From Candidatus Eremiobacterota bacterium (GTDB lineage Bacteria > Vulcanimicrobiota > Vulcanimicrobiia > Vulcanimicrobiales > Vulcanimicrobiaceae), in contig JAFAKB010000076.1 in NCBI GenBank assembly GCA_019235885.1, forward strand, positions 62,001 through 126,000: a DNA stretch of 64,000 nt, written 5' to 3'. The translations under genes and the position numbers were made by a program. Under the pieces are notes generated by a model. That model was given only the letters and a program-made list of their open reading frames with translations. It searched no databases and was not told the DNA's origin. Positions 10,552 to 44,512 of this stretch are shown here, one piece after another. Positions within the stretch are counted from its first letter, which is position 1. Each line of letters begins with the position of its first letter.

Positions 10552-10574
10552 CCCTTCGACAAGCTCAGGCTGAC
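10552..10574 (+). repeat. REP-like palindromic element, copy 1
   Basis: Contains CCTTCGACAAGCTCAGG followed by CTGAC, the same short element found at 24443, 39178 and 39295. It lies just inside or at the 5' end of the 10620-11042 gene and is open in that frame, read as LRQAQAD. Confidence 0.6.
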
Positions 10575-23761: not shown

Positions 23762-25368
23762 TCTCGCCTCCAGTTCGCGTACGCGCCGGCCATCTCGCGG
23801 CGGCGGAAGGCGCGCCAGCGGTCTTCGGCGCCGGGAAGCACCTTCGCGGGATCGGTCTCGTACACCGGCCACTTCGCCGCCGGGTCGAGGACCGGAAACC
23901 GCGCCAGCCAGCAGTACAGCTCCAAGTTCGTCTGCTTCAGCCGCGCGTGCTCGACCGAGATGAAGTAGCGCGCGCCTTTGCGGATCGCGCTCTGCTCGTC
24001 GAACGGCGTCCACAGGTGCGGGTCTTCCTCCCAGCCTTTGCGGTCGACCGTGTACAAGATGGACGGATCGTAGTGCCCCATCACGACCAGCGTGCCGGCC
24101 GCGAGCGTCGCGTCGAGCTGCTTCGCGCGGGCGAAGTTCGCCCGGTTCCACTGATAGTACGGCGCGATCTCGCGGTAACCGGCGATCAGCGCCGCGATCC
24201 ACACCACGGCCGCGATGCCGGCCAGCGTCGTGCGGCGCTCGCGCTCCGCGCTCCAGCGGTCGAACGCGAACGCGCATAGCCGCCCAATCATCAGCGCCGC
24301 GAGCGGCAGGAGCAGGTACAGGTAGTAGTCGACGCGCTCGACCGTCACGACGACGTACGCGTACAGCAGCCCGCCGCCGAGCCAGCCCCACAGCAGCGCG
24401 TCGCTGCGCGAGCCTTCCGCGCCTTGCGCGCCCTTGCCTCGATCCTTCGACGAGCTCAGGATGACAACGACAAAGCCCAGGATCGCGAGCGCGAACCAAA
24501 CCGGCCCGACCATCGTGGTCGCGAGCATCCTCAGCGCGTGCCCGAACGAGATCGCCTTCTGCAGGAACGCGTGCGGCGAAGTCAGTGCCGCGACTAGCGA
24601 AGGAAGCACGTGCAGCTTGGTGATGCCGCTCGCCCAGTGCCACTCCGCGTGCGCCGAGACGTACGCGTCGTACGCGATCAGCGGCACGAACGCGGCCGCG
24701 AACAGCGCCCACAGCTGCAGCCGCGTGACCGCGCCGCGCCATCCGAGCGTCGCGACCGCGCACGCCGCAACCGGGATCGCCGCCGTCACCGCCACCGGCT
24801 TCGCCAAAAACGCCAGCATGAGCAGCAGCGCCGCCACCCACCACCCCCGCCACGACCGCGCCTCGTCTTCGACGATCCAGCGCGCGCACGTGTACAGCGC
24901 GCAGGTGGTGAAGAAGACCATCGCGGTGTCGGGCATGAACGTCCGGCTGTAGTACCAGGCGCCGGGCATGATCGCGAACGCCGCCGCCGCGGCGATCCCG
25001 GCGATGGCCGACCGGAACAGCCAGCGGCCGAACAGCGCGATCACCGGGATCGTTGCGATACCGAACGCGAGCGAGATCAGCCGCCCGAAGATCTCGTGCA
25101 CCCCGAAGACCTTGTACAGCGTCGCGGCGAGGAACGGGACGATCTGCAGTTCCAGCTCGACGTAGTTCGGCGGCGGCCCGTTGTAGTCGGTCTGCGGGAA
25201 GAAGATGTTGTACTGCAACTGCGCGAAATTGCGCGCGATCGCGGCCGTGTCGCCTTGGCGCCAGCCGGGATGGTCGAAGATCGGGTCGTGGATCCCGTAG
25301 AGCCGCAGCGCCGCGCCGGCGAGCGTCAAGGGGATCACCGCGATCCAAAACAGCCGCGCCGGGGTCAC
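23731..25368 (-). CDS. Glycosyltransferase family 39 (PMT/ArnT-like) membrane protein
   Basis: 545 residues from a GTG at 25368 that overlaps the GtrA stop (GTGA). 'DHPGWRQGDTAAIARNFAQ' in the first periplasmic loop carries the acidic residue typical of PMT/ArnT enzymes, and 'YYSRTFMPDTAMVFFTTCALY' is a second family loop. About ten membrane helices follow. These enzymes transfer a sugar from a polyprenyl-phosphate donor to lipid or protein on the outer face of the inner membrane. A REP-like element is inserted in frame in a loop (about residue 305, ILSSSKDRG). Confidence 0.88.
   Translation of the reverse strand: MTPARLFWIAVIPLTLAGAALRLYGIHDPIFDHPGWRQGDTAAIARNFAQLQYNIFFPQTDYNGPPPNYVELELQIVPFLAATLYKVFGVHEIFGRLISLAFGIATIPVIALFGRWLFRSAIAGIAAAAAFAIMPGAWYYSRTFMPDTAMVFFTTCALYTCARWIVEDEARSWRGWWVAALLLMLAFLAKPVAVTAAIPVAACAVATLGWRGAVTRLQLWALFAAAFVPLIAYDAYVSAHAEWHWASGITKLHVLPSLVAALTSPHAFLQKAISFGHALRMLATTMVGPVWFALAILGFVVVILSSSKDRGKGAQGAEGSRSDALLWGWLGGGLLYAYVVVTVERVDYYLYLLLPLAALMIGRLCAFAFDRWSAERERRTTLAGIAAVVWIAALIAGYREIAPYYQWNRANFARAKQLDATLAAGTLVVMGHYDPSILYTVDRKGWEEDPHLWTPFDEQSAIRKGARYFISVEHARLKQTNLELYCWLARFPVLDPAAKWPVYETDPAKVLPGAEDRWRAFRRREMAGAYANWRREWKSAPDPCR
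24443..24465 (+). repeat. REP-like palindromic element, copy 2, inside GT39 gene
   Basis: CCTTCGACGAGCTCAGG with flanking T and ATGAC: one base differs from the core of the copy at 10552. On the gene's own (minus) strand it is translated as VILSSSKDR, in a cytoplasmic or periplasmic loop between membrane helices. Confidence 0.65.
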
Positions 25369-32576: not shown

Positions 32577-34907
32577 ATGCGCATGACACACCGCCCCTAC
32601 TTCCGTCCGATCGTCTTCTCGCTGACGGCGGCTCTGTTGCTCGCCGGCTGCACTCGGATCGGCGGCGGCAAGGCGGCGCCGCCCACGTCGGCCCCGACAC
32701 TCGCGCCGAACGTCGAGAACGTCAACCCGCTCGGTTTCTACTCCTCGGGCGGCGGCCACGGCGGCGGGCAGTGCCCGAAGGCTTCGGCCGCAGCGTGGGG
32801 CTGCCCGAGCGTCTACGCGCTCAGCTCCGATCCGTCCGGCATCACGGTCCAGCGCTTCGACCCCTCGGGCCAGACGACGCAATACAACACGACGCTGACG
32901 ACGCCGGCGAACGACGCGCTCCCCGACTCCTCGGCGAACATGCAGTACCGCTTCAGCTCGCCGTCCGCTGCCGGGCCGTTCGTGGTGACCGTGCAGCAAG
33001 TGCACGACGGCCCGCATCAGGTCTACTACAACCGCAACTCCGACTCGATCGGCCACGCCGACGTCTCGCTGCTGCCGGCGAGCGCGCGCCGTTCGGTGCT
33101 CTCGTCCGCCGCCGGCGCGGGACCGCGCGCCGTGCACGAGCTCGCGCGCCGCGCGAACAAGAGCGCGCCGTCCGGAACGCTCTCCGACCGCCTCTACGTG
33201 CGCTTCCGCCACGCCGCGCTGCAGGCCAACGGCCGCAGCGTCGACGACGCGATCCGCGGCCTCGGCACGCGCGGGCGCGAGCTGGCGACGACCAACGCCG
33301 ATCCGTTGGCGGTGGTCAGCGTTCCGGCCGGAACGACCGCGCAGGACTACGCGAAGACGCTCGCCGACCGCCCCGACGTCGCGGCGACGTTCCCGGTGCG
33401 CAAGCGCTACGCGCTCTCGAAGAGCGCGACGACGCCGAACGACACGAACTTCCAGATTCCCGACGAGTGGTATCTGTTCACCGACGGCTTCCCGTACGCG
33501 TGGTCCTACACCAAAGGCGCGGGCGCGACGATCGCCGTGATCGACACGGGCGTCGATCTGACGAACACCGACATCGCGCAGAACGTCAGCTTCTCCGAGA
33601 CGGTCCTGAACGGCAAGAGCTCGTCCACCGAGGTCGACAAGGACGGGCACGGCACGAACGTCGCCTCGATCGCGGACGCGGTCGCGAACAACGGCAGCGC
33701 GTTCGGCAGCGGGAACCGCAACTTCGCCGGCGGCGGCTGGTCCGCGAAGCTGATCGCGATCTCGATCTTCGATCCGGCAACCGGGTTCGCGTCGGGCTCC
33801 GACGAGGCGATCGCGATCGGCGACGCGGTCTCGCACGGCGCCGACGTCGTGAACTTGAGCCTGGGCGCGGAAGAGAGCTTCAACGACAACCAGTTCACCA
33901 GCGCGAGCAGCTGGAACGGCGGTTACGACGAGGGCGAGTTCGAGGCGATCGAAGCGGCGATCGCGGCCCGGACGACGGTCGTCGCCGCGGCCGGCAACAA
34001 CCGCGACGGCCAGGACTCGAACGGCGACCAAATCCCCGGCACCGGCCAGAACGGCAACCCGCCGCAGTTCTACAAGCACACGAACCTCGACTATCCCGCG
34101 GGCTACGCGGACGTGATCTCGGTCGGCGCCTCGGCGCTCAACGACAACAACACCGGCAATTACACGGTCGCGACCGAGTACGTCGCGCCCTACTCGCAGA
34201 CCGCGGTGAACCTCTCGCTCGTCGCGCCGGGCGGCGATGCGAACGCGAGCGGCAACGACGTCGACCTGCTCCACTGGATCTGGAACTACTACTCGACCAC
34301 CGCCAGCTCGCCGTGCACGTACGAGCAAGGCACGCTGCCGCACATCCCGACGAACTGCACGGCGCTCTTCAACGGCACCTCGCAGGCGACGCCGCAGGTG
34401 TCGGCGGCCGCCGCACTGCTCTACTCGGCCGCGGGCGGGCACAACGTCCTCACGCCGCAGCAGGTAAAGCAGCTGCTGGAGCAGACCGCCGACAACATCA
34501 ACGACCCGGCGCAAGGCCACGGCCGCCTCAACGTCTACCGCGCGGTCGCCGCGCTGGTGCAGGATCCCGGCGCGACCTACACGGGTCCGAAGCCGATCGT
34601 GCGCTCCGCAACGCAGACGATCGCGTTCGCGTACACCAACACGGGCGGCAACCGGCCGACCATCGTCGATTACGACTTCCCGGTCGGCGTCCCGGTCGCG
34701 GCCGACGGCAGCTTCCGCATCGCCGACGTGCGCCCGGCCGACGCGACGAACTTCAAGGTCGCGGTGTGGTACGACGCCAACGCCGACGGGGTCATCGACG
34801 CCGGCGACTGGATCGGCACCTCCCCCGTGAGCTGCAACGTCAGCTCGTCGTGCGCGATCGGCACGATCAAGCTGCAGCAGGTCAGCGGGACTTACGTGCT
34901 GCCGTAA
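32577..34907 (+). CDS. S8 (subtilisin-like) serine peptidase lipoprotein
   Basis: 776 residues. The signal peptide ends in the lipobox LLAGC. The catalytic triad reads as Asp323 ('IAVIDTGVDL'), His358 ('DGHGTNVASI') and Ser602 ('FNGTSQATPQVSAAAALLYSA'). About 290 residues precede the catalytic domain and may include a propeptide (YVRFRHAALQANGRSVDDAIRGLG). The C-terminal ~120 residues form an extra domain with 'AVWYDANADGVIDAGDWIG', an Asp-rich segment that could bind calcium. Likely tethered on the cell surface to digest proteins. It overlaps the convergent oxidoreductase by 16 nt. Confidence 0.92.
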   Translation: MRMTHRPYFRPIVFSLTAALLLAGCTRIGGGKAAPPTSAPTLAPNVENVNPLGFYSSGGGHGGGQCPKASAAAWGCPSVYALSSDPSGITVQRFDPSGQTTQYNTTLTTPANDALPDSSANMQYRFSSPSAAGPFVVTVQQVHDGPHQVYYNRNSDSIGHADVSLLPASARRSVLSSAAGAGPRAVHELARRANKSAPSGTLSDRLYVRFRHAALQANGRSVDDAIRGLGTRGRELATTNADPLAVVSVPAGTTAQDYAKTLADRPDVAATFPVRKRYALSKSATTPNDTNFQIPDEWYLFTDGFPYAWSYTKGAGATIAVIDTGVDLTNTDIAQNVSFSETVLNGKSSSTEVDKDGHGTNVASIADAVANNGSAFGSGNRNFAGGGWSAKLIAISIFDPATGFASGSDEAIAIGDAVSHGADVVNLSLGAEESFNDNQFTSASSWNGGYDEGEFEAIEAAIAARTTVVAAAGNNRDGQDSNGDQIPGTGQNGNPPQFYKHTNLDYPAGYADVISVGASALNDNNTGNYTVATEYVAPYSQTAVNLSLVAPGGDANASGNDVDLLHWIWNYYSTTASSPCTYEQGTLPHIPTNCTALFNGTSQATPQVSAAAALLYSAAGGHNVLTPQQVKQLLEQTADNINDPAQGHGRLNVYRAVAALVQDPGATYTGPKPIVRSATQTIAFAYTNTGGNRPTIVDYDFPVGVPVAADGSFRIADVRPADATNFKVAVWYDANADGVIDAGDWIGTSPVSCNVSSSCAIGTIKLQQVSGTYVLP

Positions 34908-35926
34908 CCGATAGCGGCGAGCGATCTCTGCACGACCAGGCCGTCCGCGAAGGTGGGGACGCCCGGCGTGCCGAGGTCGATTCGCTCGGCGAACGCGTCC
35001 AGCAGCGGTAAAAAATACGGCAGGTTGCCGTGGACGTTGGCGTGCTTCGCGTACGGTGCGGCCGCGACCTCGAGCACGTCCTCGTTCTCTTCCTCGAGCG
35101 CGAAGAGGTTCAGCTCGTTCAGGTCGGAACCGCTGGCGACCGCGCTGCGCCGCTCCCCGTGCGCCGCGATCGTCACCGACTGCACGACGGTCGTCAGGTC
35201 GCCGCTGACGCGCGCGACCAGACCGTCTCCGTAGTCGACGTACGCGAACGCGCCGTCGGCGACGTCGGTCTCGAAGGCGCCCTGCGCGTCGGTACGGTGC
35301 GGGTTCGCGGTGCGCATCAGCCCGACCGTCGCGCGCGGGAGACGCCCGCAGAGGTAGTTCGCCAAGTCGAAGTAGTGCGGCATGTAGGCGTTGCCGGCGC
35401 CGCCGCCGGCGGCGCGCGAGAACCACCAGCCGCGCGAGCGGCCCGTGTTCCGCTCCCGCAGCTCGCCGCTCAGCCGCGCGACCTCGATCTCGCGCAGCGC
35501 GCCGAGGTGAAGGTTGTCGATCAGCTCCTTGAGCGCGATGACTTCCGGCACGTAGCGAAACTCGAACGCGATCGCGGTGGCGGTCCCCGCGCGCTCGGCC
35601 GCGGCGACCATCTCCTCGGCCTGCGCGACGGTGAGCGCGAGCGGCTTCTCGCACAGCACGTGCTTGCCGGCCGCCAGCGCGGCGAGCACGGAGCGGTGGT
35701 GGTCGAACGGCGGCGAGGCGACGGAGACGACGTCGAGCTCGGTGCCGGCGAGCATCTCCTCGACCGAGCGGAACACGTGCGGGATCTTGCGCTCGCGCGC
35801 GACGCGCTCAGCGCTGTTGGGCGAAGCGATCGCGACGACGTCGAACCGCGGGTGCAGCGCAAACGCCGGCGCCTGCACCGTTCCGCCGAACCCGGCCCCG
35901 ACGATTCCGACCCGCAACGCGCTCAT
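34892..35926 (-). CDS. Gfo/Idh/MocA family NAD(P)-dependent oxidoreductase
   Basis: 344 residues. 'LRVGIVGAGFGGTVQAPAFALHPRFDVVAIAS' is the N-terminal Rossmann domain (GxGxxG); 'DVVSVASPPFDHHRSVLAALAAGKHVLCEKPLALTVAQAEEM' contains the family EKP motif. 'GGGAGNAYMPHYFDLANYL' supplies the catalytic-type His/Asp of the C-terminal domain. The family oxidises or reduces sugars, inositols and related alcohols. It is the last gene of the LuxE/LuxC operon and overlaps the aminotransferase by ATGA, so it may act on the same product. Substrate unknown. Confidence 0.92.
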   Translation of the reverse strand: MSALRVGIVGAGFGGTVQAPAFALHPRFDVVAIASPNSAERVARERKIPHVFRSVEEMLAGTELDVVSVASPPFDHHRSVLAALAAGKHVLCEKPLALTVAQAEEMVAAAERAGTATAIAFEFRYVPEVIALKELIDNLHLGALREIEVARLSGELRERNTGRSRGWWFSRAAGGGAGNAYMPHYFDLANYLCGRLPRATVGLMRTANPHRTDAQGAFETDVADGAFAYVDYGDGLVARVSGDLTTVVQSVTIAAHGERRSAVASGSDLNELNLFALEEENEDVLEVAAAPYAKHANVHGNLPYFLPLLDAFAERIDLGTPGVPTFADGLVVQRSLAAIGYGST

Positions 35927-37233
35927 CGTTCCTCCCGTGTCTCGTGCACCGTTCGCTCGAACACGTCGAGCGCGCGCGCGAGCTGGTCGTCCGCGACGAC
36001 CAGCGGCGGCGCGATCGTGATCGAGGTTCCGCTCGTTCCCGACTGCAGCAGGATCAACCCGCGCGCGAGCGCGCGCACGACGACCCGGTTCGCGAGCTCG
36101 GCGCCGCTGAACTCCACTGCCCAGAGGAACCCGAGCCCGCGCACGTCGCGCACCGCGGGCACCGCGCGCAAACGCCCCAGCCGTTCGCCGAGCAGCTTCT
36201 CCCGCGCGCGCACGCGGCCAACCACGTCGAGCCGCGCGAGCTCGTCGAGGTTCGCCAGCGCCGCGGCGCACGCCAGCGGGTTGCCGAGAAAGGTCGAGGT
36301 GTGCAACGCCTCGCCGGTGCTGCGCGGCCAGGCGTCCATCGCGCGCGCCGTGCCGATCGTCGCCGAGAGCGGGACGCCGCCGGCCAGCGCTTTGCCGAGG
36401 CACATCAAGTCCGGCGCGACGCCTTCCCGTTCGCACGCGAACATCGTTCCGGTGCGCCCGAAGCCGGTGTAGATCTCGTCGAGGACCAGCAGCGCCCCGT
36501 GCTCGTCGCAGAGCGCGCGCAACCCGCGCAGCCAGGCCGCCGGCGGAACGATCACGCCGCCGCGCCCTTGAACCGGTTCGGCGACGACCGCGCCGATCGC
36601 GGGATCGTGCGCGAGCGCCGCGCGCACCGCGTCGAGCGCCGTGTCGAGCGGCGTGGCGGCGTTCGGAAACGGCAAGAACGTCGCGCGCTCGGCGACCAGC
36701 GGCGCGAACGGTTGCCGAAAGCGCTCGATCCCGGCGAGCTCGAGCGCGCCGAGCGAGAGGCCGTGATACGCGCCCACAAACGCGAGCGCGCGCGGCTTGC
36801 CGGTCGCGAGCAGCGCGGTCTTCAGCGCGAACTCGACCGCTTCCGCGCCCGACGTCGCGAGGTACGACTTGCACAAGTTTCCGGGCGCGATCTCGGCGAG
36901 CCGCTCGAGGAGCCGCACGCGCACTTCGGTCGGGTGGACGTCGCCCATCCCGTGGATCAACCGCTGCGCCTGATCGGCGGCGGCGGCGGCGACGCGCGGG
37001 TTCGTGTGCCCCGTCGCGGCGACGCCGAAGGCGGAGGTCAGATCGAGATAGCGGTTTCCGTCGACGTCGGTGACCAGCGCGCCGGCGGCGCTCTCCCAGA
37101 ACACGGGAAACTCGGGGCCGAGATACGTTACGCCCCGCGCTTCGACGCCCGCGAGCCGCGCGGCGAGGTCGCGCGAGCGCGGCCCGGGGATCTCCGTGAC
37201 GATCGATTCGAAAGCGTCGCGCGGCGCGCTCAT
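35923..37233 (-). CDS. Class III PLP-dependent aminotransferase
   Basis: 436 residues. 'FVGAYHGLSLGALELAG', 'LLVLDEIYTGFGRTGTMFACEREGVAPDLMCLGKALAGGVPLSA' (PLP-binding Lys in LGKALAGG) and 'HTSTFLGNPLACAAALANL' are class III signatures. Relatives act on ornithine, 4-aminobutyrate, diamines and omega-amino compounds, and some aminate aldehydes. It is embedded by 4-nt overlaps between LuxC and the Gfo/Idh/MocA gene, so the LuxC aldehyde product is an attractive but unproven substrate. Confidence 0.92.
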   Translation of the reverse strand: MSAPRDAFESIVTEIPGPRSRDLAARLAGVEARGVTYLGPEFPVFWESAAGALVTDVDGNRYLDLTSAFGVAATGHTNPRVAAAAADQAQRLIHGMGDVHPTEVRVRLLERLAEIAPGNLCKSYLATSGAEAVEFALKTALLATGKPRALAFVGAYHGLSLGALELAGIERFRQPFAPLVAERATFLPFPNAATPLDTALDAVRAALAHDPAIGAVVAEPVQGRGGVIVPPAAWLRGLRALCDEHGALLVLDEIYTGFGRTGTMFACEREGVAPDLMCLGKALAGGVPLSATIGTARAMDAWPRSTGEALHTSTFLGNPLACAAALANLDELARLDVVGRVRAREKLLGERLGRLRAVPAVRDVRGLGFLWAVEFSGAELANRVVVRALARGLILLQSGTSGTSITIAPPLVVADDQLARALDVFERTVHETREER

Positions 37234-38456
37234 TCGGCGTCGATCCAGCGCACGAAATCCGCGATGCGCGGTGCGCCGCCGTGGTGTCCGGCGAGCGGCG
37301 GCGCTTGCAGCGTGCCGAACGGCGCCACGCGCACCGCGCCGATCCGCGCGGCGAGCGCGAGCGCGCGTTCGCCGGGGGCTCCTGCGACGCCGACGGCTTG
37401 CACCGGCAGCGCATGCTCTGCCACGTAGGCGGCGATCGCGTCGTCGTCCGCGACCGGGATCAGCGGCAGGATGCGTGGCAAGAACGGCGGCGGCTCGCGC
37501 AGCGGAGGTTCGATGACGAGCGTCGCGTCGCCGGCGCGGATCACCGCGCCGCGGCCGCCGGCCGAGCGGAACGCGGCCAAGTTGCGGTAGGCGGCGGCGT
37601 GTGCGACGCGCTGCGGATCGCGCGTTCCGCCGGGGAACTCGACCGCGACGCGCTCGCACGCCGCAGCGAGCGTTTCGACGACGCGCGTCAGCTGTTCGCC
37701 CTCGGCCTCGACGAAGAGCGCGTGCAGTGAGAGACAGCCTTCGCCGTCGTACAGCAGCGCGTCGCGCGCGACGTTTTCGGCGAGCGCGCCATCGAAGCGC
37801 GCGACGTCCGCGCGCGTGAGCCGGCCGATGCTGGCGCGGTGGCCGAACGGGAGGAAGCGCGTCTCCGCCCCGCAGCGCGCGCGAATCTCGCGCAGTGCTT
37901 CGTCGCGCCCGAACGCGACGACGACGTCCGCGCGCGCGAGCAGCTCCGCTTCGTGCGGTTCCTCGCCGCCGGCCCACGCGCGCGCGCGCGCCGCGTCCGC
38001 GAAGGCCGGGTGCTCCTCGGCGAGCGAGGCGAAGAAGCCGGCGATCAGGGCGTCGGCGCGGTCTTTGACGACGACGTCGCACTTCGCGCACAGCGCGAAG
38101 ACCGCCGGGACTAGCGCGACGCCGATCGTCGTGTCGCTGGAGATGATCGCGACGCGCTGGACCCCGAGCGCCCACGCCGCCGGCGCGCCGGGCCGCGCGA
38201 CGACGCCGTAGAGCGCATGGACGCTGCCGAGCTCCGCTGCGATCGCCGCTTCGAGCCCTTCGCGTGTCAGCCCGAAGAAGAGCCGGTCGAGCGCGTAGTC
38301 GACGACCGGGGTGCTGTAGCCGAGCCGCGCTTCGATCGCGGCCGTGGCGCGAACGCGCGGCGCGAAGTCCGCGTCGCGCCAGCGCGCGGCGGCGTCGGCG
38401 ACGCACCCGATGATACGGTGTGTCGAAAGAGCGCGCAGCGCGCCCGCTTCAGCCAC
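37230..38456 (-). CDS. luxC: LuxC-like acyl-protein/acyl-CoA reductase
   Basis: 408 residues from a GTG at 38456. It matches the LuxC family (PF05893): 'VVDYALDRLFFGLTREGLEAAIAAELG', 'AWALGVQRVAIISSDTTIGVALVPAVFALCAKCDVVVKDRAD' and 'LLYDGEGCLSLHALFVEA', where Cys at about 241 aligns with the acyl-accepting Cys of LuxC. LuxC reduces an enzyme-bound acyl group to an aldehyde with NADPH. It overlaps LuxE by 8 nt and the aminotransferase by 4 nt. No luxA/luxB or luxD is present, so bioluminescence is not the role. Acyl chain unknown. Confidence 0.85.
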   Translation of the reverse strand: MAEAGALRALSTHRIIGCVADAAARWRDADFAPRVRATAAIEARLGYSTPVVDYALDRLFFGLTREGLEAAIAAELGSVHALYGVVARPGAPAAWALGVQRVAIISSDTTIGVALVPAVFALCAKCDVVVKDRADALIAGFFASLAEEHPAFADAARARAWAGGEEPHEAELLARADVVVAFGRDEALREIRARCGAETRFLPFGHRASIGRLTRADVARFDGALAENVARDALLYDGEGCLSLHALFVEAEGEQLTRVVETLAAACERVAVEFPGGTRDPQRVAHAAAYRNLAAFRSAGGRGAVIRAGDATLVIEPPLREPPPFLPRILPLIPVADDDAIAAYVAEHALPVQAVGVAGAPGERALALAARIGAVRVAPFGTLQAPPLAGHHGGAPRIADFVRWIDAE

Positions 38457-39585
38457 GGCGCGCGAGCAGCGACTCGGCGTCGAGCGAGCAGCCGCGCAAC
38501 TCCGCGCCTTCGTCGCGACCGAGCAGCACGAGCCCGGCTTCATCCGCGCCGGTCGCGGAACCGACGAGCGCGCCGAGGTCTTCCGTGTCGATCGCGATCA
38601 CCGAGCCGCGATTGGCGAGGTCGACGTGGCGGATCGCGCCGACGACGCCGTTCGGCAGCGGCCGCCCCTCGCCGTCGACGACGATCGGCCGCAGCCACGG
38701 CGGCGCGACCTTGACCCGCGGCTCGATCCGCGCGCGCGACGCGAACGAATCGTAGTACTGCGAGGACAGCTCGGTCATCCCGTACTCGGCGACGATCGCT
38801 TTGAGCGGCATGCCGAGCCGCTCCGACGCTTCGGCGTACAGCTCCGCGCGCGTCACGACGCGCGTGCGGCCTTTGAACCCGCCGGTTTCCATGATCCGCG
38901 AGCCGGTCGGCAGCGCGAGATCGGCGCCGCGCGCGCGCAACGCGTCGAGCAGCGCGACCAGCGCGAACGCCGTTGTCGCGACGCACACCGCGATGCCCTC
39001 GTCGCGCGCGCGCGCAGCATCTCGCACGAAGCGCTCGACCTCGAGCCGGTCTGCGTGCACGTACCAGCCGCCCGCGCCGTCGCCGCGCTCGCGCGCGACG
39101 ACCTCCATCATGAAGCCGAGCGAGCTGTGCGGGTTCTCGCCCGGATCGGGAACGAGGTTGAGGTACCGCAGCCGCACGTCACCCTGAGATTGTCGAAGCG
39201 TGTCGGCGAGCATCATGCGGTCGAACGACGCGAGCAGCGCCGCTTCGTAGAGCTGCGTGGTCGGCAATTCGTGGCGCCCGCTGCGGGCGGGCGCGCCCTG
39301 CGCTTCTCGAAGGGTCGTGCCGCTGGTCTGGAACCACACCGCCGTCTCGTGCGGCGGAAACGTCGCCAGCCGCGCTTCTTTGAACGCCGCCGCCGGCACC
39401 GCGGGAATCTCTTCGACCCGCTCCGGCAACCGCGTTTCGTCGAACCCCGCCGCGCGCGCGAACGCCGCGTACGGCGCGTTGTGCGCGACCTGGTACGCGA
39501 ACAGATCGCGCGCGAGCGCCAGAAACTCCGCGTCGCCGAGCGCGTACGCGCGGATCGCCGCGAGGATCCGCGCGTCGAGCGTCAG
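38449..39585 (-). CDS. luxE: LuxE-like acyl-protein synthetase, apparent CTG start
   Basis: 378 residues when started at CTG 39585. 'VWFQTSGTT' is the ATP/AMP-binding motif, 'YGMTELSSQYYDS' the second adenylation-type motif (YGxTE), and 'AELRGCSLDAESLL' near the C-terminus carries Cys366, equivalent to the acyl-accepting Cys of Vibrio LuxE. The enzyme activates a carboxylic acid with ATP and hands it to LuxC. No ATG, GTG or TTG exists in frame until a TTG at 39429, which would remove 52 conserved-looking residues (RILAAIRAYALGDAEFLALA). The CTG overlaps the upstream TGA (CTGA), matching the operon's other 4-nt overlaps. Two REP-like insertions are translated within it. Confidence 0.85.
   Translation of the reverse strand: MTLDARILAAIRAYALGDAEFLALARDLFAYQVAHNAPYAAFARAAGFDETRLPERVEEIPAVPAAAFKEARLATFPPHETAVWFQTSGTTLREAQGAPARSGRHELPTTQLYEAALLASFDRMMLADTLRQSQGDVRLRYLNLVPDPGENPHSSLGFMMEVVARERGDGAGGWYVHADRLEVERFVRDAARARDEGIAVCVATTAFALVALLDALRARGADLALPTGSRIMETGGFKGRTRVVTRAELYAEASERLGMPLKAIVAEYGMTELSSQYYDSFASRARIEPRVKVAPPWLRPIVVDGEGRPLPNGVVGAIRHVDLANRGSVIAIDTEDLGALVGSATGADEAGLVLLGRDEGAELRGCSLDAESLLARRG
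39178..39200 (-). repeat. REP-like palindromic element, copy 3, inside luxE
   Basis: On the gene strand it contains CTTCGACAATCTCAGGGTGAC with one change from the core of copy 1. It is translated in frame as TLRQSQGD, as an extra segment between helix 'DRMMLAD' and strand 'VRLRYLNLV'. Confidence 0.6.
39295..39314 (-). repeat. REP-like element, degenerate copy 4, inside luxE
   Basis: On the gene strand CCCTTCGAGAAGCGCAGGGC, two to three changes from the core. Translated as TLREAQGA directly after the SGTT nucleotide-binding motif, the same frame and residue pattern as copies 1 and 3. Confidence 0.45.
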
Positions 39586-40193
39586 ATCGGAATCTTCTCT
39601 TTCTTCCGGTGCGAGGCGGTGAACGGCGTCCCCTTGTCCTTCGGATCGGCGGTCGTCAGCAGGCCGACCATGTCGGAGAAGTTCTCCGCGTAGCCGCTCA
39701 GCGTGTACGTCGTCTTCTTCGCGTCGGTCGCCGTCAGCTTGAAGAGCCGCCCGTCGAAGGTGCCGGTGAACGGCATCTTGTCAAGGGTCGCGCGCACCCA
39801 CGTCCCGGTCAGTGCGTCGCCCTGCTGCGTCACGTAGAGGTGCGAGTAGACGGTCTTGCCGGTCATCAGCGGCTGGAGCTGAACTTCCCAGACGCCGTCC
39901 ATCGTCGAGAACTGCGGCGGCTCGGGCGACTCGCTCGCGGCCGGGCTCGGCGAAGCCGCCGGCGCGCTGCGCCGGCCACGGCGGCCGGACGGGGCCGGGC
40001 TCGCGCTCGGCGCGGCGGTCGCGGGCGCGGGCGTGCCGATGAGCTGGCCGGGCGTCGCGACGCTGCCGTTCGGCGGCGGGGGCGGCGGCGGGGTTACCGC
40101 CTGGTCGGACGGGTGAGGCTGTCCGGCCGCTACGGCGGTGCCGCCCAGGGCCAGGGCGGCCACCCCGACGAGCGCGATCTGACGAAGGTTCAA
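39582..40193 (-). CDS. Secreted Pro/Ala-rich protein, first gene of the LuxE operon
   Basis: 203 residues. MNLRQIALVGVAALALGGTAVAAG is a signal peptide. Residues ~30-90 are a Pro/Ala/Ser linker (PPPPPPP; PAPATAAPSASPAPSG). The C-terminal ~105 residues (MDGVWEVQLQPLMTGKTVYS; LYVTQQGDALTGTWVRATLD; FDGRLFKLTATDAKKTTYTL) look like a small beta-barrel with repeated GxW/GT strands. No family recognised with certainty. Its TGA overlaps the CTG of luxE. A periplasmic lipocalin-like carrier role is possible but speculative. Confidence 0.7.
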   Translation of the reverse strand: MNLRQIALVGVAALALGGTAVAAGQPHPSDQAVTPPPPPPPNGSVATPGQLIGTPAPATAAPSASPAPSGRRGRRSAPAASPSPAASESPEPPQFSTMDGVWEVQLQPLMTGKTVYSHLYVTQQGDALTGTWVRATLDKMPFTGTFDGRLFKLTATDAKKTTYTLSGYAENFSDMVGLLTTADPKDKGTPFTASHRKKEKIPI

Positions 40194-40430: not shown

Positions 40431-42503
40431 ATGAGATTTTATCGACGCGGCGCATTGCTGCTGGTCGCAGCAGTGGCGCTCGCGAGCTGTCAGGGCGGCG
40501 GAGCGAGTCCGCCGCCGTTTTCAACCGGTCAAGGGTTGCCGCCCTCGGTGACGGCGACCCAGTCGATCGGCCCGTCGGGCGGCACGGTGGCGGCGACGCT
40601 GGGTGCCGCGACGGTGACCGTGATCGTTCCCAACGGGGCGCTCAGCGCGCAAGGAACGGTCGCGCTTACCGTGTTCGGTTCCGGCGCGCCGAAGACGCTG
40701 CAGTCGGTCGCCCGGAAGACCCGGACGATCGCCAAAGACGCCGTGCTGATCACCGAATTCTCCGTTACCGTCACGGGCGCGACGCTGTTGAAGCCGCTGC
40801 AAGCCTCGTTGACGACCGCACCTCCGGCGGCAGGATCCGTCTTCCGGCTCGCCGGTTTCGGGACGTCGTTCGACGACGTCGACACGGTGACGTTCTCCGG
40901 CGGCACGGCAAAATCGGACTTGAACGTCGCGTTCACGCGGATGTCGCTGGCGTCGAACACGCTGTATGCGTTCTACACCGAGCCGCAGGCCGAAGCCGGG
41001 GCGGCGCCGGTGCCGGTCGTAACCGTAACGCCCGGCACCGCGAATCCGGTCGGCATGCTGAGCGCTGCAACGTACACCGGCAGCGAAGCGGCCCCGAACG
41101 GTTTTCCGTTTCTCGATCCCAACCTCACCTTCTCGATCGACAACCCGACGCTCGGAACGATCGCGACGACGAACGCGACGACCGGAACGCTGACGACCGG
41201 CGCCGTCGACGCGTCGGGAAACGTCATCGCAACCGAACAGACGGCCGGCCGGGGCGGCGTGAAGGGGACGCAGGCGGTGCTGGTCAGCTCGCAGCGCCCA
41301 GGGTACACCGGCGACGCGTTCTCGTTCAGCGGAACGCTCTCGTCGACCACGCAGCAGACCAATTCGAACATCACGACGCAACCGCAAACGGACGCGGCGA
41401 CCGTCGCGCTGACCTCGACCGTCAAGGGCTTCACGCCGAGCACCGCCGGAGCAGGCCAAAACGCGGTGCAGTCGAGCGAGACCGACACGTACCCGCTTCA
41501 GACGATCACGACCAACACGAACAGCGTGTACGTCTACACCGCTGCTTCCGGGCACGGCACGCTCTCGATCAGCTCCAGCGACGCCAAGGATTCGAACGGC
41601 GTCGAGTACCTCACGCAGTACGGGAGCGGCAACGGAACGCTCGACGTCCTTCCCGAAGCGCCCGGCGCGTTCGGCCCGAACAACGCGGCGCTGACGTACA
41701 CCGAGACCGATCCCGCCGGCTTCGGCCGCCAGCGCACGACCAACGCCGACGGCTCGTATACCGAGCAGGGGCACGACGCCCTAGGCGACGTGCAGACGAT
41801 CACGGTGAACCCGGACCTCAGCGCGGCCTACGACGCGCGGCAGTACAGCGGCTTCCGGTTCACGGCGACGGCGCCGAGCGGGACGCCGCCGCGCATCACG
41901 TATCGCGTCTTCAACTCGTCCGGGACGCAGCTGGCGGCGTTCAACATCCCATCCTGGATCCCGGCGAGCATGACGCAGCCCTCGACCGAGACGGACGCCG
42001 ACAACGGAAGCCAGACGTTCCCCGCGGCGTGCAACGTCCCGGCGAAGTACGGGACGAGCGGAAACCAGATCGTGCAGACGGTGAACCGCGCCGACACCGC
42101 GCTCGGGAACTTGGAGACGCTGACGACCACCACGTACACCTCCGGCACTGCCGGCCCGGTGTGCATTCAGATGACCGACTCGATCAAGACGTTCTACGAC
42201 TACACGCTGCAGAACGGCTTCATCGTCTTCGTCAGCGGGAACGCGCAGCCGCTCCAGCTCACCTCGGTGAGCGAGACGCTGGCGCTCCAGTCGGCGAAGA
42301 CGTCGGGTGGCACCACCACGCAGGCGGTCGCGCGCGGCACGTCGTCTGCGTCGCGCGGCGCTTCGTCGATCGCGCCTGGGGCGTTCGCTCCGCTCGCGTT
42401 CGCGCGCGCTCGCTTCGAGCAGGCGGTTCGTCAGAAGCTGGACTGGATGCGCAAGACGACCTTCAACCATAATTTCATGAGCCAGGGAGTGAAGGTACTG
42501 TGA
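40431..42503 (+). CDS. Large lipoprotein with Ig/ZU5-like N-terminal domain
   Basis: 690 residues. MRFYRRGALLLVAAVALASC is a lipoprotein signal with lipobox LASC. Residues ~30-110 ('SIGPSGGTVAATLGAATVTVIVPNGALSAQGTVALTVFG') resemble a ZU5/autoproteolytic-type beta domain. The rest is Thr/Ser/Asn-rich beta sequence without motifs known to me (YTETDPAGFGRQRTTNADGS; SETLALQSAKTSGGTTTQAV). Its stop overlaps the GTG of the sedolisin gene (GTGA). GAGG lies about 9 nt before the ATG. Surface-exposed; partner or substrate of the protease is possible. Confidence 0.75.
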   Translation: MRFYRRGALLLVAAVALASCQGGGASPPPFSTGQGLPPSVTATQSIGPSGGTVAATLGAATVTVIVPNGALSAQGTVALTVFGSGAPKTLQSVARKTRTIAKDAVLITEFSVTVTGATLLKPLQASLTTAPPAAGSVFRLAGFGTSFDDVDTVTFSGGTAKSDLNVAFTRMSLASNTLYAFYTEPQAEAGAAPVPVVTVTPGTANPVGMLSAATYTGSEAAPNGFPFLDPNLTFSIDNPTLGTIATTNATTGTLTTGAVDASGNVIATEQTAGRGGVKGTQAVLVSSQRPGYTGDAFSFSGTLSSTTQQTNSNITTQPQTDAATVALTSTVKGFTPSTAGAGQNAVQSSETDTYPLQTITTNTNSVYVYTAASGHGTLSISSSDAKDSNGVEYLTQYGSGNGTLDVLPEAPGAFGPNNAALTYTETDPAGFGRQRTTNADGSYTEQGHDALGDVQTITVNPDLSAAYDARQYSGFRFTATAPSGTPPRITYRVFNSSGTQLAAFNIPSWIPASMTQPSTETDADNGSQTFPAACNVPAKYGTSGNQIVQTVNRADTALGNLETLTTTTYTSGTAGPVCIQMTDSIKTFYDYTLQNGFIVFVSGNAQPLQLTSVSETLALQSAKTSGGTTTQAVARGTSSASRGASSIAPGAFAPLAFARARFEQAVRQKLDWMRKTTFNHNFMSQGVKVL

Positions 42504-44512
42504 GATCGCAACGACTCTTCGCGGCGCTCGGCATCGCCGCCATTCTCGCGGGATGCGGCGGGGGCGGAGGCGGCTCGAAGGCGCCGGTCCTTCCGCAGGC
42601 GCCGACCAACAACAGGCCCGTCAACGCACCGCAATCGACCACTTTTAAGTACCTCAGCAGCGCCCTGAAGAGCGCGACGCTCACCGGGCCGGCGAACCTG
42701 GGCACGATGAAGGTCGACGTCCAGATGACCTTACCGAACGCCGCCGCGCTCGCACAGTATGCCGCTGCCGTCGGCGACCCGAGCAGCGGCCTCTACCGAC
42801 AATTCCTTACCCCTGAAGAGATCGGGAGCCGATACGGCGCCTCCGACGCCGACTACAATGCGGCAATCGCGTACTTCCAAGCCGCCGGACTGCAGGTCAC
42901 CGGCTGGAAGCAAAAGGCGATGCTCCGCGTCGTCGGTCCTCAAACAAACATGGAGCAGGCCTTCGGAACGAAATTCGGGCTGTACACTCTGAAAGGCGAC
43001 ACGGTGTACGGACCGATGTCGACGCCGAGTTTCTCCAAGCCGCTGGCCGTACACTCGGTAACCCAACTCGTCTACAACCCAAAGTGGATGAAGCGCAACT
43101 CGATCGCGATCGGTCCGCACGGGACGACGCCGGCCTTCGACTTCGGGATTCCTTCGCAGCAGCTGGCTGCGGCGTTCGACTACAGCGGCGCGTATGCGGC
43201 CGGTTACACGGGGACCGGGATCAACGTCGGCATCATCGGCACGGGGCCGATCGCGCAGGACGACTACAAGGCGTACAGACAATCCCTCGGCGCAGGCTGG
43301 CTCGACGGCAACGGCAGCTTCCACGCGACAAGCAACACGATCACGCAGGTGAACGTGAGCTCGAGCAACGGGGTGAACGGCGGCACGCCGGCGACGCCGC
43401 CGCCCGTGACGGGGCCCTGCAGCGGTTCGCTGCCGGGCTGCAATCCCGAGGACGGCGAGGCACAAATCGATACCCAACAAGCCGCTGCATTGGCGCCGAC
43501 CGCAAACGTGCTCTTCTACCTCGCCTACGTGCCGCACGAAACGTTCGGCACCAGTCACGACTTCGGTCCCCGCGAAGGGATCAGCGAAGTGAACGACGAG
43601 GTCCAGCAGATCATCAGCGACAACCAAGCCGACGTCGTCTCCGGGAGTTACGGGCTCGCGGAGCAGTACAGCGACTACACCGGCGCGGACGGCGTGACGT
43701 ACGACCCGAACGGCACGGAGCCCGTCCAGTTCGCGATGTTGCAAGCCGAAGGGATCGCGGTGTTCATCTCCTCCGGCGACGCCGGTGCAGAGGGCTGCGC
43801 CCGGCCGTTTTTCGGCACGGGGCCCGGCGTATCGAGCCCGGATCAGCCGTGCGTGAGCGCGCCGGCGGTCGATCAGAACGTCACCAGCGTCGGCGGGATC
43901 ACCGCGCCCGTCGACGAGGCCGGCCACAAGATCGGGCCGTACACGACCTGGGGCGTGCAGACCGAGCACGGCTTCGGCGCGACGGGCGGCGGGCTCTCGG
44001 TCGCCGTCCCGCTGCCTGCGTATCAAAAGGGGCCCGGCGTCCATGGCACCAAGCGCAACCAGCCGGACGCCTCCCTGGATGCCGATCCGGCGACCGGCGT
44101 CGCGGTCGTCGTCAACGCGGACTTCGGCGGCGGCTTCATCGCGTTCGGCGGCACGAGCGTCGCGGCGCCCGAGATGGCAGCGATGTGGGCGCTCGTCTTG
44201 GATGCTTGCCGGCAAACGCCGGCCTGTGTCGCGAAGGGGAGCGGGCCGAAACCGTACCGGATGGGGAACGCGGCGCCCGCGTTCTACGCGATCTACAACG
44301 ACTCGGTGCGCTACCCGGCGACGTTCCTCGACATCGTCGACGGGAACAACGGCGTGACGCCGTGCCGAGTCAATCCGGCGCAGGTCGGACCTTGTCCGAA
44401 TCCCCCGCCCACCCCCGGTCCGGGGTTCAGTGCGGGGGTCGGCTACGATCTCACGACGGGGATCGGGGTGCCGTTCGGTAGGCACCTCATCAAGTCGGTG
44501 GTCGGCGTCTGA
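42500..44512 (+). CDS. S53 family (sedolisin/kumamolisin-like) serine peptidase lipoprotein
   Basis: 670 residues. The signal ends in lipobox LAGC followed by GGGGGG. A pro-kumamolisin activation domain covers about 70-190 ('YRQFLTPEEIGSRYGASDADY'; 'VVGPQTNMEQAFGTKFGLY'). The catalytic Glu320 and Asp324 are in 'EDGEAQIDTQQAA' and the nucleophile Ser553 is in 'FGGTSVAAPEMAAMWALV'; the C-terminal 'GVGYDLTTGIGVP' belongs to the calcium-binding region. Sedolisins are secreted proteases active at acid pH. It is coupled to the lipoprotein at 40431. Confidence 0.94.
   Translation: MRSQRLFAALGIAAILAGCGGGGGGSKAPVLPQAPTNNRPVNAPQSTTFKYLSSALKSATLTGPANLGTMKVDVQMTLPNAAALAQYAAAVGDPSSGLYRQFLTPEEIGSRYGASDADYNAAIAYFQAAGLQVTGWKQKAMLRVVGPQTNMEQAFGTKFGLYTLKGDTVYGPMSTPSFSKPLAVHSVTQLVYNPKWMKRNSIAIGPHGTTPAFDFGIPSQQLAAAFDYSGAYAAGYTGTGINVGIIGTGPIAQDDYKAYRQSLGAGWLDGNGSFHATSNTITQVNVSSSNGVNGGTPATPPPVTGPCSGSLPGCNPEDGEAQIDTQQAAALAPTANVLFYLAYVPHETFGTSHDFGPREGISEVNDEVQQIISDNQADVVSGSYGLAEQYSDYTGADGVTYDPNGTEPVQFAMLQAEGIAVFISSGDAGAEGCARPFFGTGPGVSSPDQPCVSAPAVDQNVTSVGGITAPVDEAGHKIGPYTTWGVQTEHGFGATGGGLSVAVPLPAYQKGPGVHGTKRNQPDASLDADPATGVAVVVNADFGGGFIAFGGTSVAAPEMAAMWALVLDACRQTPACVAKGSGPKPYRMGNAAPAFYAIYNDSVRYPATFLDIVDGNNGVTPCRVNPAQVGPCPNPPPTPGPGFSAGVGYDLTTGIGVPFGRHLIKSVVGV

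Follow-up and report, generated by a model that had tools for sequence, protein, structure and literature searches.

A window of 64,000 nucleotides from Candidatus Eremiobacterota bacterium (contig JAFAKB010000076.1, positions 62,001 to 126,000, forward strand; assembly GCA_019235885.1) was analysed, and all coordinates given here are those of this window. On its minus strand we found an operon that encodes a LuxE-like acyl-protein synthetase, a LuxC-like thioester reductase, a class III aminotransferase (AT) of the pyridoxal phosphate (PLP) type and a Gfo/Idh/MocA-type oxidoreductase. The first three genes form a module that recurs in two phyla with its gene linkage and catalytic residues conserved, and its AT belongs to a separate clade with an active-site signature of its own. 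We consider it rather probable that the three enzymes act as a relay from a carboxylic acid to a primary amine, for which we infer the chemical steps, the class of substrate and the product. The module is well supported as a genetic unit and unproven as a pathway. No description of a LuxE-LuxC-AT module was found in the open literature (subscription journals were mostly outside the scope of the search), which yielded only unrelated settings of LuxE and LuxC.

With one genome taken from each species, a LuxE search yielded 194 relatives, of which 80 were read, and linkage was counted only for evaluable loci, i.e. those with enough contig. LuxC and AT came after LuxE, in the same orientation, in 46 of the 52 evaluable loci of Eremiobacterota/Vulcanimicrobiota. 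The Pfam LuxE model under-calls the family here: three genomes (G120, G124 and G125) were first scored as lacking LuxE, yet they have it. When the phylum was searched with AT, 100 of 147 genomes had it (66 of the 85 of good quality), and LuxC adjoined AT in 29 of the 30 loci fetched from this search, the remaining one being at a contig edge. Vulcanimicrobium alpinum WC8-2, the phylum's sole cultured member, also appears to carry the whole operon.

In the second phylum, Myxococcota, the gene order is AT-LuxE-LuxC. As a control for bias, one phylum of the Myxococcota type was searched with AT alone at a cut-off of 1e-70, and matches were obtained in 151 of 189 genomes. LuxE adjoined AT in all 30 of the best AT-only matches, and in most of them so did LuxC; among 20 more distant loci, LuxE or LuxC was near AT in 17, and of the three unlinked loci one belonged to a genome with LuxE elsewhere and two to genomes in which no LuxE was detectable. 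Where these Myxococcota genomes encode a paralog of AT that lacks the signature, it had no LuxE or LuxC neighbour. Because it is conserved across phyla, the gene arrangement is far from chance. The surroundings of the module vary. In one Myxococcota group (L096, L097, L100, L105, L109) AT-LuxE-LuxC lies directly upstream of Rrf2-SufB-SufC-SufD-SufS-SufU-SufT, and in other myxobacteria (L221, L224, L226, L230, L233) a gene for an FHA-GGDEF protein precedes AT, often overlapping it (the domains were confirmed with Pfam in L221). No glycosyltransferase or sugar genes, such as surround LuxE/LuxC in flagellar or O-antigen glycan clusters, were seen beside the module in the annotated loci. At a Sumerlaeota locus (L108), LuxE overlaps an AspC-like class I aminotransferase and has no LuxC beside it, which is perhaps a different LuxE-aminotransferase pairing.

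In luminous bacteria, LuxE is acylated on a cysteine in an ATP-dependent reaction and passes the acyl group to a cysteine of LuxC, where it is reduced to the aldehyde. Both proteins of the window are clear members of these families, with 45.3 bits for LuxE against a gathering cut-off of 24.9 (PF04443) and 114 bits for LuxC against 21 (PF05893), and their closest solved structures are two subunits of one complex (7xc6_E at 3e-9 for LuxE and 7xc6_A at 1.7e-5 for LuxC). They miss the NCBIfam equivalog cut-offs of the luminous enzymes widely (37.9 of 550 bits for LuxE and 32.2 of 750 bits for LuxC). The preliminary description of this DNA had pointed out that the nucleophilic cysteines of both proteins are kept, and this holds in the relatives too: the acyl-accepting Cys of the RGCS motif in LuxE is at least 95% conserved among 94 relatives and the catalytic Cys of LuxC at least 95% among 100. 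The adenylation motifs of LuxE (SGT, YGM, E, D and GR) are likewise kept at 95% or more in the 94 relatives. The LuxE model (predicted local distance difference test, pLDDT, 90) matched PaaK/ClxA adenylating enzymes in Foldseek, that is an ANL/PaaK-type fold. There is one copy each of LuxE and LuxC in the whole genome. The reported lack of luciferase genes was borne out locally, as luxA and luxB were absent from the operon and the flanks read, and luxD from the operon; a genome-wide search for luxD gave no match, but its control also matched nowhere, so that the absence of luxD from the genome is not established.

The AT has a GABA aminotransferase (GABA-AT) fold, with a pLDDT of 96 and a template modelling (TM) score of 0.92 to GabT, and its core, including the PLP lysine and the Asp, is intact. 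Around this core four positions of GABA-AT are changed. Arg stands at the position of Glu211 in 116 of 116 LuxE/LuxC-linked ATs and Arg398 is kept in none of the 116, whereas this signature is missing from 25 of 28 unlinked ATs, 20 of them with the canonical Glu/Arg pair (the rows of these counts are not all independent, some genomes having been entered twice). The three unlinked ATs that do have the signature are those of the three distant loci without a LuxE or LuxC neighbour. In the window, Thr occupies the Arg398 position, Leu replaces Arg141 and Tyr replaces Gln242, a position held by Tyr or Trp. In a quick tree with support from the Shimodaira-Hasegawa-like approximate likelihood ratio test (SH-aLRT) and no bootstrap, a branch with an SH-aLRT of 98 set off the ATs with the signature, and outside it were the ArgD of the same genome (next to ArgJ), the PatA and GabT references and the Myxococcota paralogs. 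The AT reached no NCBIfam equivalog cut-off (the PigE model gave 272 bits against 850). Judged from sequence, it is a distinct branch, separate from ArgD, GabT and PatA and not named in the family libraries searched; an ordinary GABA or putrescine enzyme is ruled out by the tree and the signature. The Leu in place of the carboxylate-binding Arg141 suggests a substrate tail without a carboxylate, probably a hydrophobic one; since the Arg141 equivalent is lost, a semialdehyde with a second carboxylate would not be expected. The Arg at the Glu211 position together with the loss of Arg398 (an exchange of Arg for Ser/Thr) suggests altered binding of the amino donor.

On this basis we propose the following steps. 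LuxE would use ATP to form an acyl-adenylate and place the acyl group on its own C-terminal Cys, from which it would pass to the Cys of LuxC and be reduced with NAD(P)H to the aldehyde. The AT of the clade would then take up the aldehyde as a ketimine with PLP/pyridoxamine phosphate and release a primary amine, and the Gfo/Idh/MocA enzyme would contribute a lineage-specific later step or a side activity. That the aldehyde from LuxE and LuxC may be aminated by the adjacent AT was the central idea of the preliminary description, and it has come through both comparisons that had been set for it: LuxE and LuxC have such an AT as neighbour in two phyla, and in the tree the AT stands outside the ornithine, 4-aminobutyrate and putrescine enzymes.

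The proposed chemistry has precedents in enzymes of different make. TamA and TamH of Pseudoalteromonas tunicata, from the biosynthesis of tambjamine YP1, convert a C12 acid to the C12 amine by the same three chemical steps (PMC9594044). They would share with the module ATP activation, a thioester, NAD(P)H reduction, a class III aminotransferase and two or three linked genes. However, TamA consists of an ANL domain with an acyl carrier protein (ACP), and in TamH a domain of the acyl-ACP-reductase type is fused to the aminotransferase (PMC9594044), whereas here LuxE, which would acylate itself and in which no ACP domain was found, and LuxC are separate proteins, and a pyrrole-alkaloid cluster is absent. 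PigE of prodigiosin biosynthesis couples thioester reduction with transamination (PMC8341465), also with a class III aminotransferase acting on the aldehyde, but it is a single fusion protein with another type of reductase and no LuxE-like activation. The activating and reducing enzymes of the module are not homologous to those of either system. The fatty acid reductase of luminous bacteria, LuxC/LuxE(/LuxD) (PDB 7xc6), has homologous proteins with both Cys nucleophiles, and differs in that the operon described here has an aminotransferase in place of luxA, luxB and luxD. The GABA, putrescine and acetylornithine aminotransferases share the fold and the PLP core with the AT, but neither its clade nor its changes at the four positions. 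In HemA/HemL, too, a class III PLP enzyme (glutamate semialdehyde aminotransferase) receives its aldehyde from a reductase (glutamyl-tRNA reductase), but the substrate is a tRNA, the reductase is unrelated and a separate HemA/HemL pair is present in the genome. We also considered, and rejected, that the module stands in for steps of the arginine, heme or polyamine pathways: ArgD by ArgJ, HemL by HemA and a PatA-like aminotransferase occur elsewhere in the genome.

Several observations weigh against the acid-to-amine relay or against parts of it. LuxE lies apart from LuxC and AT in six of the 52 loci, either moved behind a ribosomal-protein operon or separated by inserted genes, and two genomes (G246 and G318) have a member of the AT clade and no detectable LuxE, the LuxE model being weak for this family. 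As LuxE folds like aryl-acid adenylating enzymes, its modelled fold being as near to these as to fatty-acid ligases, the acid need not be fatty. The polar lipids of cultured V. alpinum were reported as unidentified, none being assigned as an aminolipid, and this speaks neither for nor against one. The same relay could serve primary metabolism, acting on a small or polar acid with a cofactor, a polyamine or an amino-acid-like compound as the product and no link to lipids. The neighbours in Eremiobacterota are of the housekeeping kind (MetY, a CoA-binding protein, LeuC/LeuD, PrfA, CinA and NadE), one Myxococcota group has Rrf2, SufBCD, SufS, SufU and CysH beside the module, and the module is near-universal in the bacterial family of the window (AT in 66 of 85 good genomes of the phylum). 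However, these neighbours change with the lineage, as with the FHA-GGDEF gene of the other myxobacteria, and so imply no pathway, canonical ArgD and HemA/HemL are encoded elsewhere, and the Leu in place of Arg141 speaks against such an acid; we regard this explanation as rather doubtful.

The loss of Arg398 could instead mean that the AT carries out PLP chemistry other than transamination, as an epimerase, a lyase or a condensing enzyme acting on the LuxC aldehyde or on another substrate. Arg398 is lost and Glu211 replaced throughout the clade, and the class III fold includes amino-acid racemases, which came close behind GABA-AT in the fold search. Yet the core with its Lys and Asp is intact, the Arg in place of Glu211 could hold the carboxylate of a donor, and identity to the racemases is no more than about 30%, which makes this possibility quite unlikely. 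LuxE and LuxC could also supply an aldehyde or alcohol to some other process, with the AT as a mere neighbour, as they may do in the flagellar glycosylation islands of Aeromonas, where LuxE/LuxC pairs occur without such an AT (PMC7874193); the six loci with LuxE on its own would fit. This we find very unlikely, as the AT clade and signature match the linkage to LuxE and LuxC exactly, in two phyla and in both gene orders. Finally, the pathway might be decaying in the window genome itself, whose LuxE may be impaired: a dispersed repeat has entered it twice, in frame both times, which no relative examined shows and which casts doubt on its activity, and the model confidence is low at the one beside the SGTT loop. 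All four reading frames are intact and every catalytic residue is retained, and decay appears unlikely. The relay to a primary amine is the reading that we favour.

The genes and residues are listed in Table 1. The preliminary description had joined five overlapping genes, starting with a secreted Pro-rich protein. The order and the overlaps of the four enzyme genes were confirmed: the luxE stop overlaps the GTG of luxC by 8 nt, and LuxC/AT and AT/GFO overlap by 4 nt each (ATGA). The GTG at 38456 is most likely the start of LuxC. The start of LuxE is ambiguous, being either a CTG at 39585, which overlaps the stop of the secreted-protein gene, or a TTG at 39429; the listed open reading frame, from the TTG, is truncated, as conserved N-terminal sequence reaches about 39585, where CTG is the sole option. 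A scan for promoters and terminators gave no signal above chance. Secreted proteases of the S8 (subtilase) and sedolisin/kumamolisin types flank the operon (32577-34907 and 42500-44512, both on the plus strand), and in many, though not all, loci of the relatives the operon has S8 or S53-type protease genes nearby on the opposite strand.

Table 1. Features of the LuxE-LuxC-AT operon and copies of the dispersed repeat in the window.
Feature	Position	Strand	Remarks
Secreted Pro-rich beta protein	39582..40193	-	Matches no Pfam family; neighbour by synteny, in our judgement outside the pathway
LuxE-like acyl-protein synthetase	38449..39585	-	ANL/PaaK-like fold; Pfam LuxE 7e-12; start uncertain
LuxC-like acyl-protein thioester reductase	37230..38456	-	GTG start overlaps LuxE stop; Pfam LuxC 1e-32
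Class III PLP aminotransferase (AT)	35923..37233	-	LuxE-linked clade; Pfam Aminotran_3 2e-100
Gfo/Idh/MocA-type NAD(P) oxidoreductase	34892..35926	-	Pfam GFO_IDH_MocA 8e-30; accessory operon member in the bacterial family of the window
LuxE acyl-accepting Cys codon	38490-38488	-	RGCS
LuxC catalytic Cys codon	37736-37734	-	
AT PLP Lys codon	36393-36391	-	
AT Arg codon	36564-36562	-	Position of GABA-AT Glu211
AT Thr codon	36018-36016	-	Position of GABA-AT Arg398
Repeat copy in luxE (CTTCGACAATCTCAGGGTGAC)	39178..39198	-	Adds TLRQSQGD in frame
Degenerate repeat copy in luxE (CTTCGAGAAGCGCAGGGCG)	39291..39314	-	By the SGTT ATP-loop; reads TLREAQGA, same frame
Further copy of repeat CTTCGACAAGCTCAGGgTGAC	10554-10574	+	
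Further copy of repeat CTTCGACAAGCTCAGGgTGAC	24445-24465	+	

The core of the operon is LuxE, LuxC and AT, and the oxidoreductase belongs to it only in families near that of the window. Its gene follows in 42 of 47 evaluable Eremiobacterota loci, and the protein has a Rossmann domain with the EKP motif and the H/D motif, EKP and H189/D192 being invariant in 70 relatives. In class-level relatives (L148-L150, L152, L157-L160), however, a gene of the major facilitator superfamily (MFS; MFS_3/MFS_1 families), which we take to be EntS/MefA-like, directly follows AT in its place, and no GFO was recognised at this position in the Myxococcota loci read, so that the oxidoreductase is not supported as a core step. 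The MFS gene is compatible with export and no more, and is the only hint of the use in the envelope or in export that the preliminary description had suggested. The same class-level loci have genes for 2-oxoacid dehydrogenase E1/E2 nearby, and some also have Suf genes.

Upstream of LuxE, most relatives have MetY-like and CoA-binding genes, which separate it from the secreted protein, with LeuC/LeuD also found elsewhere. Within the genus of the window, one genome (G119) has the secreted protein, MetY, the CoA-binding protein, LuxE, LuxC, AT and the oxidoreductase, and both G119 and G125 have the MetY- and CoA-binding-type genes between the secreted protein and LuxE (in G125 the CoA-binding gene was detected only through its antisense frame). 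The secreted protein adjoins LuxE only in the window genome and its near relatives; its place there is best explained by loss of the MetY and CoA-binding genes, and on synteny we do not count it as a member of the pathway. As MetY is kept on another contig of the window genome, it is a neighbour and not a requirement. We likewise rejected the idea that MetY/CoA-binding or Suf genes tie the module to sulfur metabolism, MetY being unlinked here and Suf confined to one Myxococcota group and some of the class-level relatives.

The repeat inside luxE is dispersed in the genome, with 69 copies of the 16-nt core of CTTCGACAAGCTCAGGgTGAC (at most one mismatch) against none for the reversed control. 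At the degenerate copy, luxE is 7 residues longer than in close relatives. The opposite-strand reading of the repeat, ILSLSKD, occurs in an AT paralog (L113). The element is similar to palindromic elements embedded in proteins, as in Rickettsia.

A wider reading, in which Vulcanimicrobiota and Myxococcota generally make primary alkyl amines (or amines of other neutral acids) as a normal cell component or for export, with an AT of a new specificity group that handles its donor without the usual Glu/Arg switch, seems to us possible, if clearly short of probable. If the relay operates as proposed, two large and little-studied groups of bacteria would share a conserved route from acids to amines, whose parts have until now been known mainly from bioluminescence, and amines not yet looked for in these bacteria would be predicted. 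It would also provide an ACP-free set of enzymes for making amines from acids. The signature of the AT would allow this enzyme to be recognised in any genome, and a cultured member of the phylum that apparently has the whole operon makes direct testing possible.

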